From Planctomyces sp. (GTDB taxonomy: Bacteria > Planctomycetota > Planctomycetia > Planctomycetales > Planctomycetaceae): a stretch of 64,000 bases of DNA. The translations under genes were made by a program, and so were the position numbers. Positions 2,296 through 27,987 of the stretch are shown here, in pieces. The notes under the pieces were generated by a model. That model did no database searches. It saw nothing but the letters and a program-made list of their open reading frames with translations, and had not been told where the DNA came from. Within the stretch, counting starts at the first letter, position 1; each line of letters starts with the position of its first letter. The stretch lies in assembly GCA_016795105.1 (NCBI GenBank), contig JAEUIH010000009.1, positions 124,001 to 188,000 of the forward strand, read 5' to 3'.

Positions 2296-4323
2296 ATGCG
2301 AACGCTGCATTTGGTTTCTGTTGCAAGGCTGCTCAACGAAGTTGTATTGCTGATCTGTATCCTCGTAAGCCACGGCTCACTGAGGGCGCATGAGCGTACT
2401 CCGGAGGACAAGACGCGGCGTCCGAATATCGTTTGGGTCAGCTGTGAAGATATTAGTCCACTGCTCGGCTGCTATGGAGACTCAATCGCCCGCACGCCCA
2501 ATATCGATCGACTTGCCTCGGAGGGAATTCGTTTTACATATGCGTTTTCCTGCCATGGTGTTTGTGCGCCCAGTCGAACAGGCATCATCACAGGTATGTC
2601 ACCGCTGAGCCTTGGAGCAAATCACATGCGCTCCAAAGCTCTATTGCCGGACCATGTGCAACTCTTTCCTGCATACCTGCGGGGAGCTGGATACTATTGC
2701 ACAAACAACAGCAAGACGGATTACAACCTTCACTGGGATCAGTCACTTGTTTGGGATGAATCATCTGCGAGAGCTCACTGGAAGAATCGTTCGGACCCGG
2801 CTCAGCCCTTTTTTGCCGTCTTCAATCTGACGATGACTCATGAGTCAAAAGTATGGAAGGACGGCTGGAGTGATGTTGTCAAAGGAAGGCCCGTTGACAG
2901 ACTGACTCGACCTGCTGATGTTGTAGTCCCGCCACTCTATCCGGATACCCCGGAAGTGCGAGCCGATCTTGCAAGGCTCTATGACATTGTCAGCGTCATG
3001 GATGATCGGGTGGGGGAACTTCTTTCCGAACTGGAATCCTCCGGCGAGCTGGAGAATACGTTTATCTTCTTTTGGTCAGACCACGGCAATGGACTTCCTC
3101 GAGCCAAACGCTGGTTATACGATTCCGGAACCCGAGTACCGCTGATTGTTCGAGTACCAGCGACGTTCAATGCGGGGGCTGATCAGGCCGGTGCTGATCA
3201 GATGGAGTATGGTCGTGCCGGAAGTTCGGACCATCGGCTGGTGAGTCTTGTGGATTTGGGTCCCACCGTTCTGAGGCTGGCTGGTTTGTCGATACCGCGT
3301 CACATGCAGGGAGTGGTTCTGTTCGATGTTGACCGTGGGGCAGGCCGCGATTTTATCTATGGTGCGCGCGATCGGATTGATGAACGATTTGATATGGTTC
3401 GCTCTGTCAGGTCACAGCGGTATCGCTATGTGCGGAATTTCATGCCCTGGCGACCGGCACTCCAGCATAAGAGCTATGCTGAGCGAAACCGGACTCGCCA
3501 GGAAATGCGACGACTCCTGGCTGCGGGCGAGCTGGCTCCGGAGATCGCTCAGTACTTTCAGACTCCACGGCCTGCCGAAGAATTTTATGACCTCGAACAG
3601 GATCCCTGGGAGCTCAGGAATCTCTCTGCGGACCCATCTGTTGCTGATCAGTTGATGGAATTGAGAAATGAGTGTGATCGCTGGCAGCTGGCGGTGCGGG
3701 ATGCTCATCTGATTCCTGAAGCGATTCTGAATGCTGAAGAGACGCAAATTGGAAACCGCTGGGGAATTCTGCATCAGGAGAATGGAAAACAGCGGACCGA
3801 AATTCTGTTGACTCTGGCCAAATCCGTCTCAACCGTTTCCGCTGATTGCGAGCCAAAGTGCCGGTCTGCAATGAGCAGCAACGACCCGGCGGCCCGATGG
3901 TGGGCAGTCATGGGATTCCGCCAACTCATCGACAGGCAACTGCAGAATGACGGGCAACTGCAGTATGACGGGCAACTGCAGTATGACAGGCAACAGTCGG
4001 GCGTTATTGAACACGGCGGAGTCGAGCAATACAGAGAAGTACTCAAGGGGGCACTCAGTGATGCTTCTTCGGTTGTCCGAATCGCGGCCGGAGCGGGGCT
4101 CCGTCCTCGGGCCGCAGGGGAGCCAGGCTATGACGTCCTGTTGAAATCGCTCCAGAGCTCGAATGTCTTCGATCGTCATGCTGCGATGGTTGAGATCGAT
4201 GAAATGGATCCGGACTTGATCCAGAGTCTGCGAGTCGCAATCAGTGCGATGCCGAAAGACGAGTACACGGATCGTCTGGCCGACCATGCGCTGGGCCGGC
4301 TCAACGCTGAAGACCGGCGATGA
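2296..4323 (+). CDS. Secreted sulfatase (type I, Cys-type) with C-terminal HEAT-like extension
   Basis: This 675-residue protein begins with a signal peptide (LLNEVVLLICILVSHGSLRA, to about residue 31). The sulfatase core opens with RRPNIVWVSCEDISPLLGCYGD, and the CAPSR motif (Cys at residue 91) is the CxPxR signature whose Cys is converted to formylglycine. FFWSDHGNGLPRAKRWLYDSGTRVP supplies the late metal-site and substrate-side motifs. Residues from about 500 onward are an extension with alpha-helical, HEAT-like repeats (SSVVRIAAGAGL, VFDRHAAMVEI). It contains a short tandem repeat of DGQLQY near residue 550 that looks like a recent local expansion. It lies 73 bp from the divergent SMP-30-like gene. 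The substrate is probably a sulfated polysaccharide or related sulfate ester. Activity needs a formylglycine-generating enzyme, which is not in this window. Confidence 0.88.
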   Translation: MRTLHLVSVARLLNEVVLLICILVSHGSLRAHERTPEDKTRRPNIVWVSCEDISPLLGCYGDSIARTPNIDRLASEGIRFTYAFSCHGVCAPSRTGIITGMSPLSLGANHMRSKALLPDHVQLFPAYLRGAGYYCTNNSKTDYNLHWDQSLVWDESSARAHWKNRSDPAQPFFAVFNLTMTHESKVWKDGWSDVVKGRPVDRLTRPADVVVPPLYPDTPEVRADLARLYDIVSVMDDRVGELLSELESSGELENTFIFFWSDHGNGLPRAKRWLYDSGTRVPLIVRVPATFNAGADQAGADQMEYGRAGSSDHRLVSLVDLGPTVLRLAGLSIPRHMQGVVLFDVDRGAGRDFIYGARDRIDERFDMVRSVRSQRYRYVRNFMPWRPALQHKSYAERNRTRQEMRRLLAAGELAPEIAQYFQTPRPAEEFYDLEQDPWELRNLSADPSVADQLMELRNECDRWQLAVRDAHLIPEAILNAEETQIGNRWGILHQENGKQRTEILLTLAKSVSTVSADCEPKCRSAMSSNDPAARWWAVMGFRQLIDRQLQNDGQLQYDGQLQYDRQQSGVIEHGGVEQYREVLKGALSDASSVVRIAAGAGLRPRAAGEPGYDVLLKSLQSSNVFDRHAAMVEIDEMDPDLIQSLRVAISAMPKDEYTDRLADHALGRLNAEDRR

Positions 4324-4453
4324 GAGCAGATTTGTAGCTTCATTCAGGAAGATAGGTCTGGTGGTGATTGAATTGTTGGTCTTACAATTACCTGCAATTC
4401 AATGGGCTGTTTTGGTGATATGTCCTTAAACGTTATTGGAGAAAGGCTACCTC

Positions 4454-5920
4454 GTGAAGAGAAATGTTCTCGGAGTAATTGCATTCATTGGAATTGTGTT
4501 CGGCATCGCTGTCACCAGTGACGTAAGAGCCGCTTCGAAGGCCGCTTTGGAGGCGAAGCCGCATATCATCCATATTCTTGCTGACGATCTGGGTTGGAAG
4601 GATGTGGGCTTCAATGGATGCACTGACATCAAGACACCAAACATTGATGGGCTTGCAGCCGGTGGGGCAAAGCTGACTCAGTTTTATGTTCAGCCCATGT
4701 GCACACCGACTCGAGCTGCATTGATGACCGGCCGATATCCGTACCGATATGGGCTTCAGACCGCGGTGATCCCATCTGTTTCCGCTTATGGACTGGACAC
4801 CAGTGAGTTTTTGATGCCGCAATGTCTCAAGGAAGCCGGGTACAAGACGGCAATCATTGGCAAGTGGCATCTCGGTCACGCCAGCCGGGAATACTGGCCG
4901 CAGCAGCGAGGATTCGACTATCACTATGGGGCGATGATTGGGGAACTGGATTACTTTTCACACGAGGAACACGGCGTACTCGACTGGTATCGGGATGACA
5001 AGCCGGTCAGGGAAACCGGATATACGACGGAGCTGCTTGGTAAGGATGCCGTCAAGTTGATTGAGAATCACGATACCTCGAAGCCACTGTACCTCTACCT
5101 TGCCTTCAATGCACCTCACACACCATACATGGCGCCTGAAGAATATGTAGCTCGATACAAGAACATCGCTGACCCAACGCGGAGAACATATGCCGGAATG
5201 GTGACATGTCTTGACGACCAGGTCGGTCGTGTTGTGGCTGCTTTGGAAAAGAGGGGGATGCGTAAAAATACTCTGATCCTGTTTCACAGCGACAATGGGG
5301 GGACAAAGAATGCAATGTTTGCAGGTGTGATGGCGGATGTGTCGAAGATTACGATTCCCTGCGACAACGGGCCGTACCGTGATGGTAAAGCATCGCTGCT
5401 GGAGGGTGGGACTCATGTGTGCGCTCTGGCGAACTGGCCCGGTCGAATCGCTCCGCAGGAGGTGAACGGAATGATTCATGCCGTTGATCTCTACACAACG
5501 ATCGCAGCTCTTGCAGGGGCTTCCACAGAAAAGTGCAAACCGCTCGACGGCCTCAATGTGTGGAGCACCATTGCAGAAGGAAAGCCGTCCCCAAGGACAG
5601 AGTTCTTTTACAACATCGAGCCATTCCGAGCTGCAATCCGGCAGGGGGACTGGAAACTCATCTGGAAGACGACGCTTCCGAGTTCTGTGCAGTTGTACGA
5701 TCTTTCGAAAGATCCTTATGAGGCAAACAATGTAGCAGCTGCAAACCCTGAAAAGGTTGTGGAGCTTCAGCACAAAATCGATGCAGCAGCAGCCGAATCA
5801 GCCAAACCGCTGTTTCTCACGGATCAGTTCAAAGTGATCACCGTAAATATGAATGGTGAGCCCATTCTCCCGACTGACGAAGGGTTCGGAGATCCCGACC
5901 ATACGACTCATAAGAAGTAA
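4454..5920 (+). CDS. Secreted arylsulfatase (type I, Cys-type)
   Basis: This is a 488-residue sulfatase. The start chosen is GTG at 4454, because GGAGAAAGG lies 8 bp upstream; an in-frame TTG at 4436 overlaps that Shine-Dalgarno and is less likely. A signal peptide (VLGVIAFIGIVFGIAVTSDVRA) precedes the core KPHIIHILADDLGWKDVGFNG with its two metal-binding Asp. The CTPTR motif (Cys at residue 83) followed by AALMTGRYPYRYGL is the formylglycine signature. KWHLGH and the later HSDNGG segment complete the active site. Overall it is closest to the arylsulfatase A/B type and is compact compared with the preceding sulfatase. It lies 130 bp downstream of the first sulfatase on the same strand and converges on ftsH. 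The two may act on successive sulfate esters of one glycan, but that is inference. Confidence 0.9.
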   Translation: MKRNVLGVIAFIGIVFGIAVTSDVRAASKAALEAKPHIIHILADDLGWKDVGFNGCTDIKTPNIDGLAAGGAKLTQFYVQPMCTPTRAALMTGRYPYRYGLQTAVIPSVSAYGLDTSEFLMPQCLKEAGYKTAIIGKWHLGHASREYWPQQRGFDYHYGAMIGELDYFSHEEHGVLDWYRDDKPVRETGYTTELLGKDAVKLIENHDTSKPLYLYLAFNAPHTPYMAPEEYVARYKNIADPTRRTYAGMVTCLDDQVGRVVAALEKRGMRKNTLILFHSDNGGTKNAMFAGVMADVSKITIPCDNGPYRDGKASLLEGGTHVCALANWPGRIAPQEVNGMIHAVDLYTTIAALAGASTEKCKPLDGLNVWSTIAEGKPSPRTEFFYNIEPFRAAIRQGDWKLIWKTTLPSSVQLYDLSKDPYEANNVAAANPEKVVELQHKIDAAAAESAKPLFLTDQFKVITVNMNGEPILPTDEGFGDPDHTTHKK

Positions 5921-5986
5921 CAAAGGCAGTGAATTCATCTGCCTGTTGTGATGCTCAGGCTGCCGGGTTACGGGAAGAAAACTCTG

Positions 5987-8283: not shown

Positions 8284-11200
8284 ATGAACTTACGAAAATC
8301 CAGTGCAACGCTGGCTGTTCCGGTATTGGTTCTGCTTTTTCAGACGGCTACGGTTGTTCGTGCTGACGAGCAACTGGAGTTTGTTCGAACAAAGGTTCGA
8401 CCGCTTCTGGAATCCCGTTGTTTTGAATGTCACGGTCCCGGCGTGGAAGCCAAAGGGGGCCTGTCGATGGGCTCCCGTGCCGGGATGCTGGAGGGCGGGG
8501 ACAGCGGACCATTGTTTAAGGCTGGAAAGCCGGAAGACAGTCTGCTGATTTCGGCGGTCAAGTACGAATCTTTCGAAATGCCGCCTCGAAGTCGAATCCC
8601 GGATGAGGAAATCGCGATTCTGGAGAAGTGGATCTCTCTGGGGGCGCCATGGGAAGATGACACTTCCCATCCATCAGCGGTCGCCGAGAAGGCTGCTTTC
8701 CCCCTGCTGGAACGAAAGGCTGCACACTGGGCATGGCATCCAATTCAGGATTCTCCCATTCCGGACGCTGGCGGCTCAAACTGGCCAATCAGTGAATCTG
8801 ACCGGTTTATCCTCAAATCTCTCAGTGACGCAGGCCTGACACCAGCACCCGATGCAGACCGAAGAGTCATACTTCGTCGACTGTGTTTCGATCTTGTCGG
8901 ACTTCCTCCGTCAAAAGAGCTTACCGACCGTTTTCTGAACGACCCGCAGGAGACCGGTGCGGCGATGACGACGGTGGTGGATGAATTGCTGGCATCACCT
9001 CAGTTCGGAGAACGCTGGGGGCGTCACTGGCTGGACCTTGTTCGTTATGCAGAGACTCTCGGTCACGAATTCGATTACCCGCTTCCGTATGCATGGCGAT
9101 ATCGAGACTATGTCATCAGAGCCTTCAATGAAGATGTCCCATACAATCAATTTGTGCGAGAGCATGTGGCTGGAGACCTTCTGGTAACCCCACGCCGTCA
9201 TCGGGGAGATCTCTACAATGAATCCATCATTGCAACGGGATTCTGGTATTTGTCGGAAGACAAGCATGCTCCGGTTGATGTCCGCGGTGAAGAAGCGGCT
9301 CGTATGGATAATCAGATCGACGTGTTTGGTAAGTCGTTTCTTGGGCTCACGATTGGATGTGCGCGATGTCACGATCACAAATTTGATGCGATCACATCTG
9401 CCGACTACTATGCACTGGCTGGCTATCTGCAGAGTTCGCGTCGCAGGGTTGAGTGGCTGGATCCGGTCCGGCGGACTGAGTCGATGGCTCGACTTCTCGC
9501 CTTTCTTCGCAAAGAAACGCGAGAACCTATTGCACATGGCATCATTGCGATGCCGCCTCAGCGAGTGATTGATCGCATGAAGGAGCTTCTGTATTCGAAG
9601 CTCCCGGTCACGGATCCTGAGCTGCCATCAAAGGTGCTGTTAGCAGAAAAAACCAGGGAATTCGATCATCCGTTGTCTCTTGTTGCGAAAATGAAAGCAG
9701 CTCGGGATTCTGCCAGAGCAACAGCTGCTGCCGAAGGCGATCCATCTCAGAGCAAATACGACTGGAAGGCCACTGTCAGCGAATGGTGTCAGGGGATCCA
9801 CGAAGCACAAAATGCGCCTGGTCTTGTCAGCACGGAACGGTTTGCGCGAGTGGAAGGAGAAGTTCCGGCAGACTGGAACTTCTACGGACTCGCATTTCAC
9901 TGGATTGAAAATTCTGCGTATGCCAACGAGCCCGCTCAGCGTCCCGGTGTGATTTCACCTGCGTACTCGTTTGATGTGAGCTGGACGCCTGAAGGTCCAC
10001 GTGCTTTGCCACGAGATCGCGTTTCGTCCCTGACAATGGGGCCCCAGTTCAAGGGGGTTCTTGCGACACCGACGTTTGAGTTGAAGGACCCGGAGATTGT
10101 CGTGCTGGTTGCCGGTGAAAAGGCACGAATGCGACTGGTGATCGATGGATACGTTATGAACGAATTCAGCGAGCTGCTGTTCAGCGGAGCTCGGCAGCCG
10201 ATCGATACTCTCGGTGAATATCGCTGGATTCGACTTGGCGGAGATGTGCATCGTTATATCGGTCATCGGTGTCATCTTGAGTTTATCGACGATGGAGAAG
10301 GCTGGTTTTCCGTAAAAGAAATACGGTTTGTGAAACATGCCGGTGGAGCAGATCCGCCTTTTCATGCTCCGTCAGACATGAATCTGAAGCTGGCGAAGAC
10401 TCTGATGACAATGCCTCCTGCCACAGAGGAAGACGTCCTGGCGCAAGTGTCGATCGCAGCGATGCAGGATGTGCGATACATCACGACACTTACGGAACTT
10501 GGCGTTGAATACTCCGGCTATACTCATGCACTGGAGAAAGCGGCTCAACAGTGGCCGGAAATCATTGCAAATCCGCCGGAGACGTTTCCAGTCCTTGTTA
10601 TGTGCGATGGATCCGGGGAAGACGAACATTTATTGATTCGAGGCAATCACAAGAACCCTGGTGCACCTGTCAAACGGCGTTTACTCGAAGCAATTGACGG
10701 CCCGGAAGGCATGATGATCGAACGAGGCAGCGGTCGCCTGCAGCTTGCAGATCGACTCATCGCTGAAGACAACCCGCTCGTTGCGCGAGTGATGGTCAAT
10801 CGGATTTGGCAGCATCTGTTTGGAAAAGGGATCGTTGCATCTCCGGATAACTTTGGTGTACTTGGACAAAAGCCAAGCCATCCGGAGTTATTGGACTATC
10901 TGGCAACGAAATTTCGCCGTGACGGCTGGTCTGTGAAGTCGATGATTCGAGGATTGGTTTTGTCTCGAGCGTATCGCATGTCGAGTGTTCCAGATCCTCG
11001 GGCAGAGGCCAGCGACCCTTCGAATCGCCTGTTACATCATGCAAACGTTCGAAGACTTGAAGGAGAGGCAATTCGAGACAGTATCCTGAGTCTCTCCGGG
11101 AGGATCAATTTGACGATGTACGGGCCTTCGGTGCCGGTCTATCTGTCTCCCTTCATGCAGGGACGCGGACGTCCGGGATCCAGTGGACCTCTGGACGGTG

Positions 11201-23177: not shown

Positions 23178-23383
23178 GAAACCGAACCTCGGGGAGATTC
23201 ACAGTGAACTTCGACTTTGAGGGCAGGACGTGGAGTTTTGGGATACTGTTCCGTTTTTTTCTGACAGATTCATCGTTTTTCACGGCACTTCTATGACGTT
23301 CGGTGGTTTTTCTAGGATCGGACAGGAAAATTCCGACATCTCCCCTCTCTCGAGGTCTTCGAATTTCTTCAGGAGCACACGAC

Positions 23384-24418
23384 ATGCAGTTCTCACGCAC
23401 ATTTCGTCAGGCGGCAGTTTTCTGCACAGCCTCGGTGTTTTTTTCCAGTGTTTTGCCAGCTCAGCCTCCGGAGCGGGGCGGGCAGGAGAATCAGGAACGC
23501 GGTAATCGCGGTCCGGGCGGTCAGGAAGGCGGCCGAGGTCAGCGAGGAGGATTCGGTGGTGGTGGTTTCGGAGGAGGAGCCTTCGGTGGCGGGATGATGG
23601 GCCGTGGCGGCGCTTCGATTACTCGAGCAACCCTGCTTGGTATGGAGCAAATTCGCAAAGAGCTCATGATCGAAGAAGCTCAGGCAACCACGATCGACGC
23701 TGCGATTGAAGCTTACCGCGAAGAACGCAGAAACGCGGCTCGACCCGATTTTCAGGCAATTCAGGGCATGTCCGAAGAAGAGCGAACTGCCTTCTTTGAG
23801 AAAATGCAGAAGGATCGCGAAGAAGCGACCAAGAAGTCCGATGCCGATATGAACGCTCTGCTCGAAGCAGATCAGGTCAAACGACTGGACGAAATTGTGC
23901 TCCAGGCAAAGTTGAAGTTGGCTCTGATTCCAACCCTGAAGGGCGAAGAACTCGCCAAAAAACTCAGCCTTACCGAAGATCAGACTGCAAAACTGACTTC
24001 TGTTGAAGAGGCCGCTAACGCAAAACGCGACGAAGCGATGGCTGCAATGCGGGAAAACTTCACACCAGGTGGTGACCGCGAACAGATGCGTGAGATGATG
24101 GAGAAGATGCAGGCCGAAGGCGAAAAACGCCAGAAGGAAACTGAAACAGAAGCCATGGCCGTGTTGACAGACGAGCAAAAATCGACGCTCGAAGGTCTTA
24201 AGGGCAAAACCGTTGAATTGGATGCTCGAATGCTTCGAGGCGGTGGATTTGGTGGCGGTGGATTTGGCGGTCCAGGTGGACCAGGCGGTGGATTTGGCGG
24301 TCCTGGTGGCGGTCCTGGTGGACCAGGCGGCGGCCCCGGTGGCGGTCGCGGAGGACGAGGTGGCCGAGGCGGTCAGGGTGGTGGCGGACAGCGACCACCA
24401 GCGGACGACGCAATCTAG
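23384..24418 (+). CDS. Exported Gly-rich, helix-rich protein of unknown function
   Basis: Start 23384 has AGGAG 8 bp upstream and gives 344 residues. A signal peptide (AAVFCTASVFFSSVLPAQ) is followed by a Gly/Arg-rich segment (GGFGGGGFGG type) and then a charged alpha-helical region, residues about 75-275. Its LTDEQ-like turns (LSLTEDQTAKL, VLTDEQKSTLEGLKG) recall periplasmic Spy/CpxP-type LTxxQ proteins. The C terminus is another Gly-Pro-rich tail of about 60 residues. The LTxxQ-like resemblance suggests a periplasmic chaperone or metal/stress-related role, but that is weak. The Gly repeats probably expand by slippage. It ends just ahead of a strong terminator and the 9-bp array. Confidence 0.75.
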   Translation: MQFSRTFRQAAVFCTASVFFSSVLPAQPPERGGQENQERGNRGPGGQEGGRGQRGGFGGGGFGGGAFGGGMMGRGGASITRATLLGMEQIRKELMIEEAQATTIDAAIEAYREERRNAARPDFQAIQGMSEEERTAFFEKMQKDREEATKKSDADMNALLEADQVKRLDEIVLQAKLKLALIPTLKGEELAKKLSLTEDQTAKLTSVEEAANAKRDEAMAAMRENFTPGGDREQMREMMEKMQAEGEKRQKETETEAMAVLTDEQKSTLEGLKGKTVELDARMLRGGGFGGGGFGGPGGPGGGFGGPGGGPGGPGGGPGGGRGGRGGRGGQGGGGQRPPADDAI

Positions 24419-24443
24419 GCTGGCAGTCTGATCAGCATAATGA

Positions 24444-24479
24444 GCCCGGCATCGTTTCACGATGCCGGGCTTTTTTTTT
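24444..24479 (+). terminator. Strong intrinsic terminator after the Gly-rich gene
   Basis: GCCCGGCATCG (24444-24454) and CGATGCCGGGC (24460-24470) form a perfect 11-bp stem with a TTTCA loop, followed by nine T residues. It begins 25 bp after the stop codon at 24418. Confidence 0.95.
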
Positions 24480-24480
24480 G

Positions 24481-24651
24481 GATCGGTCGGATCGGTCGGA
24501 TCGGTCGGATCGGTCGGATCGGTCGGATCAGTCGGATCAGTCGGATCAGTCGGATCAGTCGGATCAGTCGGATCAGTCGGATCAGTCGGATCAGTCGGAT
24601 CAGTCGGATCAGTCAGATCAGTCAGATCAGTCAGATCAGTCAGATCAGTCA
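24481..24651. repeat. 9-bp tandem array, 19 units in three sequence blocks
   Basis: The array is 171 bp with no indels. Five units of GATCGGTCG (24481-24525) are followed by nine units of GATCAGTCG (24526-24606) and five of GATCAGTCA (24607-24651). The blocks differ by single substitutions, which implies stepwise expansion. It starts one base after the T-run of the terminator and ends 3 bp before the stop codon of the convergent ECF sigma gene. Because the unit is 9 bp without a stop, most frames through it are open, but none looks like a real gene. Confidence 0.97.
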
Positions 24652-24654
24652 GAC

Positions 24655-25239
24655 TCAAGCTGGCTGGAGAGAGCCCATGACGTCTCGCAGGCGACCACGA
24701 GCTGTGTGCAGTCTTCGCTTGATCGTTCCGATCGGGCTTTCGAACTGATCACTCATTTCCTTGAGAGATGAGCCTTCGAAGTAAAATGCCCACAGTGTTT
24801 CACGATCGAGCTGACCGAGCTGGCTCAGTCCATATCGAAGTTGTTCGATGTTTTCCTGTCGAATCAGGCTTTCGAATGGATTGTCCGGATCGCTCTGCAG
24901 TCCATCGAACGAATCCGGTTCACAGCTGGTTTCTGCCGGTCTTCGGACGGCTCGGTTAATGGACAATCGAACTGCGATTTGGCACAGCCACCCGCCGAAT
25001 CGCTCAGGCTCATTGAGCTGAGGCAATTTTCGGAATGCTCGCAGGAAGACTTCCTGAACGACTTCATCAGCCTCTGCGGTGTTGCGAAGCCTCTGCATAA
25101 CGATCCCGAAGATCCGAGATTCGAACTGCAGCACGAGATCATCGAAGGCTTCTCGATCGCCTTCCTGAGCTCGGATTACGGTTTCGTACAGGGTTTCAGT
25201 AATTTTATCCAAAGTATTCAAAGACATTCGTGTCATCAT
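24655..25239 (-). CDS. ECF-type RNA polymerase sigma factor
   Basis: The likely start is the ATG at 25239 (MMTRMSLNTLDKITE), giving 194 residues; ATG at 25227 is an alternative. Region 2 is clear (DREAFDDLVLQFESRIFGIVMQRL, then TAEADEVVQEVFLRAFRKLPQL), followed by FGGWLCQIAVRLSINRAVRR. Region 4 is LGQLDRETLWAFYFEGSSLKEMSDQFESPIGTIKRRLHTARGRLRD. The domain spacing is typical of the ECF class. No anti-sigma gene lies next to it; downstream are only the 9-bp array and the convergent Gly-rich gene. The stop codon sits 3 bp from the array, so changes in array length could alter the transcript's 3' end. Confidence 0.9.
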   Translation of the reverse strand: MMTRMSLNTLDKITETLYETVIRAQEGDREAFDDLVLQFESRIFGIVMQRLRNTAEADEVVQEVFLRAFRKLPQLNEPERFGGWLCQIAVRLSINRAVRRPAETSCEPDSFDGLQSDPDNPFESLIRQENIEQLRYGLSQLGQLDRETLWAFYFEGSSLKEMSDQFESPIGTIKRRLHTARGRLRDVMGSLQPA

Positions 25240-25524
25240 CCTTGCCTGAGCACGCACAGTGAGTTCTGTTGTTCCCGAAGACCGGGGTGCAACGACATCG
25301 AACGCATGCGTGGGGACCAAAAAGTGCAGTAACGGTGAGATCAGTGCAAACGACGAACTGTGAGGAACAAGTTCGAGCGACTGGCACATGCGGAAATGAA
25401 CGTAACCGTCCGGAAGTTCCGGGCGGTTCATTCTGCGTGTTTAGCAGGAGAGTCTGACTTCTTTGTGGCGATCAGGGACGCGATGAAATCGAGCCCAGGA
25501 GCCTCAAAGGGAATTCAGATCGTT

Positions 25525-27533: not shown

Positions 27534-27848
27534 ATGAACATAATGATTTACATCCTGGTTGGTTGCTTCGCACTTGCGTTCATGGTGATTTTTGCGGCTA
27601 TGTTCTTTACATCAGCGTCCGTATTCCGGATCTTCAACCGAGTACTCGATGAGTCTGAAAAGCAAAGCCGCCAGCCTGGTGTGGGAACGGGACGGGTACT
27701 GGATGTTGTGGCACGTGAACCCCACAAAGCGGCATCTTATAAATGCCGCAGTTGTGGGGCTTTAGCTGACAGCACAGCCGAATTATCTGCCAAAGGCGAA
27801 TTTCGCTGCAACTACTGCAATGCCTGGACCAGCATCTACGAACCCTAA
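27534..27848 (+). CDS. Small membrane-anchored zinc-ribbon protein
   Basis: The 104-residue protein has one N-terminal membrane segment (IMIYILVGCFALAFMVIFAAMFFTSASVF, about residues 3-31). A linker of about 35 residues and a C-terminal zinc ribbon follow, with CRSC near residue 71 and CNYC near 94 (CxxC-x20-CxxC). The ribbon looks similar to those of small nucleic-acid or protein-binding domains, facing the cytoplasm if the N terminus is outside. I do not recognise a named family. Its stop codon abuts the 37-bp hairpin repeats, whose first unit begins inside the TAA. Confidence 0.75.
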   Translation: MNIMIYILVGCFALAFMVIFAAMFFTSASVFRIFNRVLDESEKQSRQPGVGTGRVLDVVAREPHKAASYKCRSCGALADSTAELSAKGEFRCNYCNAWTSIYEP

Positions 27849-27987
27849 TGTAGCTTGGGCATTCTTGCCCGAGCCCTCCACCTAATGTAGCTTGGGCATT
27901 CTTGCCCGAGCCCTCCACCCAATGTAGCTTGGGCATTCCTGCCCGAGCCCTCCCCCCAATGTAGCTTGGGCATTCCTGCCCGAGCCC
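27847..27987. repeat. Four tandem copies of a 37-bp hairpin (REP-like) element
   Basis: Units begin at 27847, 27884, 27921 and 27958, exactly 37 bp apart; the last is cut to about 30 bp. Each contains CTTGGGCA-TTCT/TTCC-TGCCCGAG, an 8-bp stem (one G-T pair) with a 4-base loop. The units vary at the loop (ATTCTTG versus ATTCCTG) and in the spacer (CCACCT, CCACCC, CCCCCC). They lie between the stop of the zinc-ribbon gene and the convergent NIPSNAP gene. There are no unique spacers, so it is not a CRISPR. Confidence 0.95.

Follow-up and report, generated by a model that had tools for sequence, protein, structure and literature searches.

In the window, i.e. the whole stretch of 64,000 nucleotides that was analysed, an ECF sigma factor gene and an LTXXQ-family gene form a convergent pair, and the gap between them holds a tandem array of 19 contiguous 9-bp units, arranged head-to-tail over 171 bp (positions 24481-24651) in three ordered blocks of five, nine and five units (Table 1). 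The LTXXQ gene is followed by a terminator-like site, whose hairpin (24442-24472) and T run (to 24479) are separated from the array by a single base (G24480). This terminator is a property of the plus-strand LTXXQ gene, not of the sigma gene, and for the sigma strand the prediction gave no site of this kind within the gap. At the other end three bases (24652-24654) lie between the array and the TGA stop codon of the sigma gene (24657-24655). The arrangement described by an earlier, sequence-only reading of this DNA, namely a 19-unit array wedged between a terminator and a sigma stop codon, was thus confirmed by the letters themselves, by TRF, by the terminator prediction and by Pfam.

Table 1. 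Features of the array and its immediate surroundings (window coordinates)
Feature	Position	Strand	Remarks
LTXXQ-family gene (PF07813)	23303..24418	+	convergent neighbour; start uncertain, hexamer model prefers 23384
Terminator-like site, intrinsic	24442..24479	+	14-pair stem and T run, behind the LTXXQ gene
Array, block 1	24481..24525	+	five GATCGGTCG units
Array, block 2	24526..24606	+	nine GATCAGTCG units
Array, block 3	24607..24651	+	five GATCAGTCA units
ECF sigma factor gene	24655..25431	-	Sigma70_r2 1.9e-12, region 4 2.4e-6

TRF described the array with a period of 9, 19.0 copies, 98% matches and a score of 279, which was the top one of the eight rows obtained for the window. In the window the sequence GATCRGTCR has 23 occurrences, with 4.5 (sd 2.3) expected from shuffled sequences, and 19 of them fall into the array. 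Being composed of head-to-tail copies of one unit, the array is built like a minisatellite (variable number tandem repeat). Its units are contiguous, without the unique spacers between repeats that characterize a CRISPR.

The genome of the window (G000) is a draft of 8,907,889 bases in 391 contigs, and it was compared with the genomes of two congeners, G001 and G002. The sigma orthologs of G001 and G002 are, in the matched part, 81% and 80% identical to the protein encoded here; in the genome search they align from about residue 78 or 84, and the start of the sigma gene is uncertain. Both orthologs end, as here, with QPA-stop, therefore the sigma stop at 24655, beside which the array lies, is evidently native and conserved. 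A convergent LTXXQ gene follows the sigma gene also in G001 (55% identical) and in G002 (42%). The array is absent from the orthologous sigma-LTXXQ gaps of both congeners. Terminator prediction behind the sigma stop gave a site in G001 and none in G002.

When the unit was looked for elsewhere in the genome, as the sequence-only reading had proposed, it was found: in the degenerate form GATC-N-G-W-C-N it makes up at least 18 arrays in the draft G000, and it is present also in G001. Two consecutive GATCRGTCR units had 124 matches genome-wide in G000, and four consecutive GATCNGWCN units had 209 matches on one strand and 210 on the other; the letter-reversed controls of both searches gave 0. The unit consensus is its own reverse complement, with both GATC and GWC symmetric, thus the counts on the two strands stem largely from the same arrays. 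A search for four GATCs spaced by nine, with the five intervening letters left open, gave 223 matches per strand. The 1,007,925 G000 bases that were examined contained 216 forward matches of this kind, and 250 of their 252 distinct cores had the form NGWCN, the two others both being at array edges. Since the core was left open in this search, the result means that nearly every nine-spaced GATC array obeys the GWC rule. The GATC in every unit, already remarked on in the sequence-only reading, is therefore a defining part of the unit. With one unit present at many loci of one genome, beyond chance, the family can be called a dispersed satellite.

We read 22 arrays, 18 from G000 and four from G001. 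All 286 units fit GATCNGWCN, with changes only at positions 5, 7 and 9, a conformity that is partly by construction, because conforming units set the extents of the arrays and deviating edge units were left out. Unlike neighbours meet at 87 junctions in these arrays; 37 of the junctions involve a change at position 9 alone, 24 at position 5 alone and 26 at two or three of the positions 5, 7 and 9. Read on one strand, 250 of the 286 units have purines at both position 5 and position 9. A tandem repeat search in 665,584 further bases of G000 found three 9-bp arrays, none with more than four copies, and no array of the GATCNGWCN family. The absence of the family is partly by choice, since 400,000 of these bases were stretches of array-holding contigs picked away from the known arrays; the lack of other long nonamer arrays has nothing to do with this choice. 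Three contigs (C49, C52 and C324) have arrays at their ends, therefore the assembly may under-count or cut arrays.

The position of the arrays relative to genes was determined from gene calls made by a crude hexamer model with the array letters masked. Seven of the 22 arrays lie inside genes, among them genes for a TPR protein and a CAAX protease-like protein. In all seven the GATC is in codon phase 0 (chance would be one in three), i.e. the frame is GAT-CNG-WCN, and the arrays encode Asp followed by Gln, Arg, Pro or Leu, then by Ser or Thr. Ten of the 15 arrays located outside genes have a stop codon at most 5 bp away or overlapping with the array. If one considers the intergenic arrays with both neighbours known, eight of 12 are stop-adjacent vs. 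3.1 expected from uniform placement (simulated p 8e-5). According to the sequence-only reading, numerous identical arrays placed without regard to gene ends would speak against it; the arrays are indeed many, but they are neither identical nor unrelated to gene ends. For at least seven of the ten stop-adjacent arrays the TGA that serves as stop is made up of array letters, consequently the array may have supplied it. Support for a native stop comes from orthologs at the sigma locus only, and from domain coverage at two other loci. At one of these (L158) the DUF1501 profile is covered to its last position at residue 472 of 473, at the other (L150) the DHDPS domain spans residues 6-299 of 306, which suggests that these stops are probably native as well. 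Homologs of the L150 DHDPS protein were distant only (the best 30-32% identical) and add little on this point. L158 carries two arrays less than 450 bp apart (9497-9739 and 10177-10230 of that locus), one beginning at the DUF1501 stop codon and the other located in frame within the next gene. In L147 a 12-unit array (5851-5958) stands in frame directly after the motif DTSLSMS, which we take to be VWA-like, in a protein of 907 residues for which the Pfam search returned no family.

The blocks consist of identical units, which points to unit duplication, and the ordered expansion of blocks assumed in the sequence-only reading is borne out by the 5/9/5 structure and by block junctions that recur at other loci. 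In the 18 arrays of G000 we counted 44 shared ordered block junctions vs. 28.3 with shuffled block order (p 0.0026). One of these successions, AGTCG followed by AGACA, is a two-letter step and occurs in five of the 18 arrays. Because ordered junctions are shared beyond what shuffled order gives, the comparison moderately favours the copying of multi-unit pieces between sites. This is the one test that speaks for dispersal by copying; the direction of the block order, when tested by itself, was not significant (p 0.116).

Evidence for changes of copy number comes from other planctomycetes. Three loci in three named planctomycete genomes (L043, L045 and L119) have flanks that are 88-96% identical and carry 18, 21 and 9 units, respectively; a further pair (L037 and L124) has flanks 82-94% identical and 13 and 10 conforming units. 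Since loci with shared flanks differ in this way, copy number evidently does change at these loci. A change of repeat number, which the sequence-only reading had in mind with strand slippage, is thus supported as a mechanism by these loci of other planctomycetes, and it may operate at the sigma locus too.

Three consecutive GATCRGTCR units were found in two of 99 genomes, G000 itself and G001. Among 392 genomes of the phylum seven had four consecutive GATCNGWCN units, in three cases as a single match. The same four-unit search with GTAC replacing GATC gave no match in the 392 genomes, and GATCNCWGN gave none in eight array-bearing genomes. Three genomes from other planctomycete families (G407, G346 and G239) contain short arrays, in which neighbouring units differ at positions 5, 7 and 9. 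Among the 86 inner units of the 31 arrays examined in these genomes there were eight deviations in 516 fixed cells and five more at W7, figures that overstate conformity because the arrays were found with exact seeds and only inner units were counted. When G407 and G346 were searched with relaxed settings, numerous copies came up that deviate from the unit in one or two letters, frequently at array edges, showing that array decay occurs, and arrays outside G000 and G001 sometimes break the GATCNGWCN rule.

The search of a collection of named genomes for four RGTCR units brought up at least 110 stretches, the measured controls being those of the genome searches above. The taxa among the matches listed include Planctomycetota, Verrucomicrobia, Lentisphaeria, Hydrogenedentota, Myxococcales and others. 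Some of the matches, at least in gamma-proteobacteria, resemble coding repeats of Asp-Pro-Thr that vary by wobble changes, e.g. GATCCAACT beside GATCCGACT; these we do not count as members of the family, and such cases have been sorted out in part from the at least 110 stretches. A viral collection yielded 29 stretches with the nonamer pattern. One virus-labelled contig (L371, IMGVR_UViG_3300005254_000046, 7481 bases) has ten nonamer matches, at five places listed on the plus strand, and it may be bacterial. Six of the loci (L038, L047, L051, L123, L135 and L138) belong to one Verrucomicrobia MAG; they share a flank containing the palindrome GGCAATGGTTGCC (with a one-letter variation in L123), and the nonamer array begins directly at this flank or a few bases behind it, as if array and REP-like element travelled together. 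In L101, L128, L107 (Oligosphaera ethanolica) and in L080 two different nonamer sub-arrays are joined by a short linker. Some of these composite arrays have a GATAAAAGA-like spacer, and in L101 and L128 the whole is repeated at about 110 bp.

We consider it probable that the array belongs to a dispersed nonamer satellite which grows by slippage, is filtered by selection and is mostly a passenger, with a letter rule that acts at the level of DNA. The array beside the sigma gene would then be one copy of a genome-wide family of GATC-N-G-W-C-N satellites. A short array piece would have landed behind the native sigma stop after the lineage had split from its congeners, would have grown by unit duplication into the three ordered blocks, and could have survived because a site just after a stop codon tolerates insertion. 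Inside genes survival would have been possible only in the frame that reads Asp-x-Ser/Thr. From the shared ordered junctions we infer that the family may have spread by copying of array pieces. The array beside the sigma gene is probably a passenger, most likely a neutral or selfish one. It would affect its surroundings mainly by giving the sigma transcript a 3' end that is long and weakly folded.

The sequence-only reading had thought of an influence on the 3' end of the sigma transcript, and one can imagine a functional element of this kind: the transcribed array would stabilise or terminate the sigma mRNA, and its length would tune expression. The array does stand 3 bp behind a native stop, G001 has a predicted terminator in the place of the array while the sigma strand here has none, and the array RNA folds somewhat better than its shuffles. 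Against this, the family occurs inside seven other genes and behind unrelated genes, the sigma loci of both congeners are without the array, G002 is also without a predicted terminator, and the fold signal of the sigma strand is weak when the neighbouring hairpin is left out. We regard such an element as the least probable of the explanations considered here, and regulation specific to the sigma gene was set aside, given the dispersed family of at least 18 arrays and the two orthologs without an array. Folding is also central to the idea that the array expands by slippage on a hairpin, in which GATC would pair with GATC and G6 with C8, leaving positions 5, 7 and 9 mismatched. The predicted fold-back of the sigma strand has this pattern over most of the array, with the invariant letters paired and the variable ones unpaired, and the array folded by itself does better than shuffles on the sigma strand (z -2.1, six of 200 shuffles as good) and on the other strand (z -3.7, none of 200 as good). 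The stronger values of z -5.9 and -6.6, however, were obtained when the neighbouring terminator hairpin was included in the fold, and the best fold of the plus strand pairs the variable positions too, through G-U pairs. The calculation of DNA folding covered the full set of 14,560 nonamer classes. Most units (279 of 286) belong to the 12 family classes in which positions 5 and 9 are non-complementary, and these classes ranked at about 3600-5900, many nonamers folding far better; the four family classes with complementary positions 5 and 9 ranked from 145 to 490. The classes that are mostly used are thus mediocre, so it is not stability that selects GATCNGWCN, and we rejected hairpin stability as the cause of the specificity. 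The GTAC unit, moreover, is equally symmetric, yet it did not turn up in the 392 genomes. Expansion driven by hairpins appears very unlikely to us.

Two further candidates for the origin of the letter rule were rejected. Constraint from protein coding does not explain it, because synonymous changes (GAC for GAT) would pass and arrays outside genes obey the rule too. The sequence-only reading had connected the GATC with methylation, and this did not find support: the Dam-type methylase family PF02086 (Pfam D12), which is the family that the test covered, had matches in five of eight array-bearing genomes (in G000 weakly) vs. 12 of 15 others (several weakly), and the three array-bearing genomes with no match included G001 and the array-rich G407. 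The 15 comparison genomes were ones with 0 three-unit RGTCR matches, and only some of them were covered also by the degenerate search. Dam-type methylase genes thus do not track the arrays. It is conceivable that a putative dimeric DNA-binding protein recognises the palindromic unit in tandem, in the way that met boxes and omega heptads are bound in tandem, and that selection for binding keeps GATC, G6 and C8. The three unrelated planctomycetes from other families fit this proposal in that their units vary at positions 5, 7 and 9 and hold the fixed positions, for which duplication alone would be insufficient. Most of the G000 arrays, however, lie behind stops or in genes and not in promoters (the L157 array, between two gene starts, is placed differently), arrays reach up to 34 units, and the conformity is inflated by exact seeds and inner-unit counting, the relaxed search having shown mismatched copies. 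Taken together we think that binding by such a protein is unlikely.

Since stability, coding and Dam-type methylase fail to account for the rule, we think that some sequence-specific step, either copying or binding, keeps GATC, G6 and C8 fixed. A more far-reaching version, which we put forward only tentatively and with considerable doubt, is that a system with sequence specificity, be it an enzyme for copying or a protein that binds in tandem, is distributed sporadically in planctomycetes and perhaps in other phyla; it would spread arrays behind stops or in frame, and let only positions 5, 7 and 9 drift.

Returning to the slippage-grown satellite as the preferred reading, it is useful to compare the family with known repeats. 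Bacterial short tandem repeats are usually explained as local slippage without sequence preference. Here a single nonamer rule holds for numerous unrelated loci, extends over unrelated families of planctomycetes and, as it appears, to other phyla as well, and its invariant and variable positions are explained by neither coding nor hairpin stability; the strict letter rule is the interesting part of the finding. If there is a factor behind the rule, short repeats would be spread, and Asp-x-Ser/Thr linkers inserted into proteins in frame, by a route that is new. The STRR sequences of heterocystous cyanobacteria reportedly consist of a short tandem unit of 7 bp present at many dispersed loci per genome. 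The family resembles them in having a short tandem unit at many dispersed loci of one genome, and differs from this 7-bp, cyanobacterial type by its 9-bp unit, its degenerate palindromic rule GATCNGWCN and its occurrence in planctomycetes and other phyla. Hairpin-forming trinucleotide repeats such as CNG have, when folded back, paired invariant letters and a mismatch at the variable letter; the same is seen here on one strand, but the fold-back stability of GATCNGWCN units is mediocre among nonamers. Prokaryotic satellites were surveyed earlier, and that survey, whose table includes Rhodopirellula baltica, attributes the tandem arrays, many of which code for amino acid repeats, to anomalies of DNA replication (PMC6749651). 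Transposed families of non-coding satellites with long repeats (over 30 nt) are described there for only two species (PMC6749651), whereas the family described here has units of 9 bp. REP elements with GTAG or CGTC tags, which are likewise dispersed and self-complementary, have been described for the PVC group too, and are palindromes of 20-40 bp with a tag (PMC3733652). In contrast, the array consists of 171 bp of tandem nonamers with a long mismatched fold-back in place of a compact stem-loop, and the GTAG/CGTC tag is absent. A literature search with the terms nonamer and planctomycete repeats and with the letters of the unit, which covered a minor part of the subscription journals, found no description of the family among the papers listed.

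The window contains another tandem repeat as well. At 27842-27987 a unit of 37 bp, whose core is GGGCATTCCTGCCC, is present four times in tandem, and the repeat overlaps with the final 7 bases of a small ORF (27534-27848). This core is found again, with other periods, in tandem arrays of L147 (12363-12990, 14364-14424 and 15822-15900), and the repeats with this core are a second dispersed repeat family.
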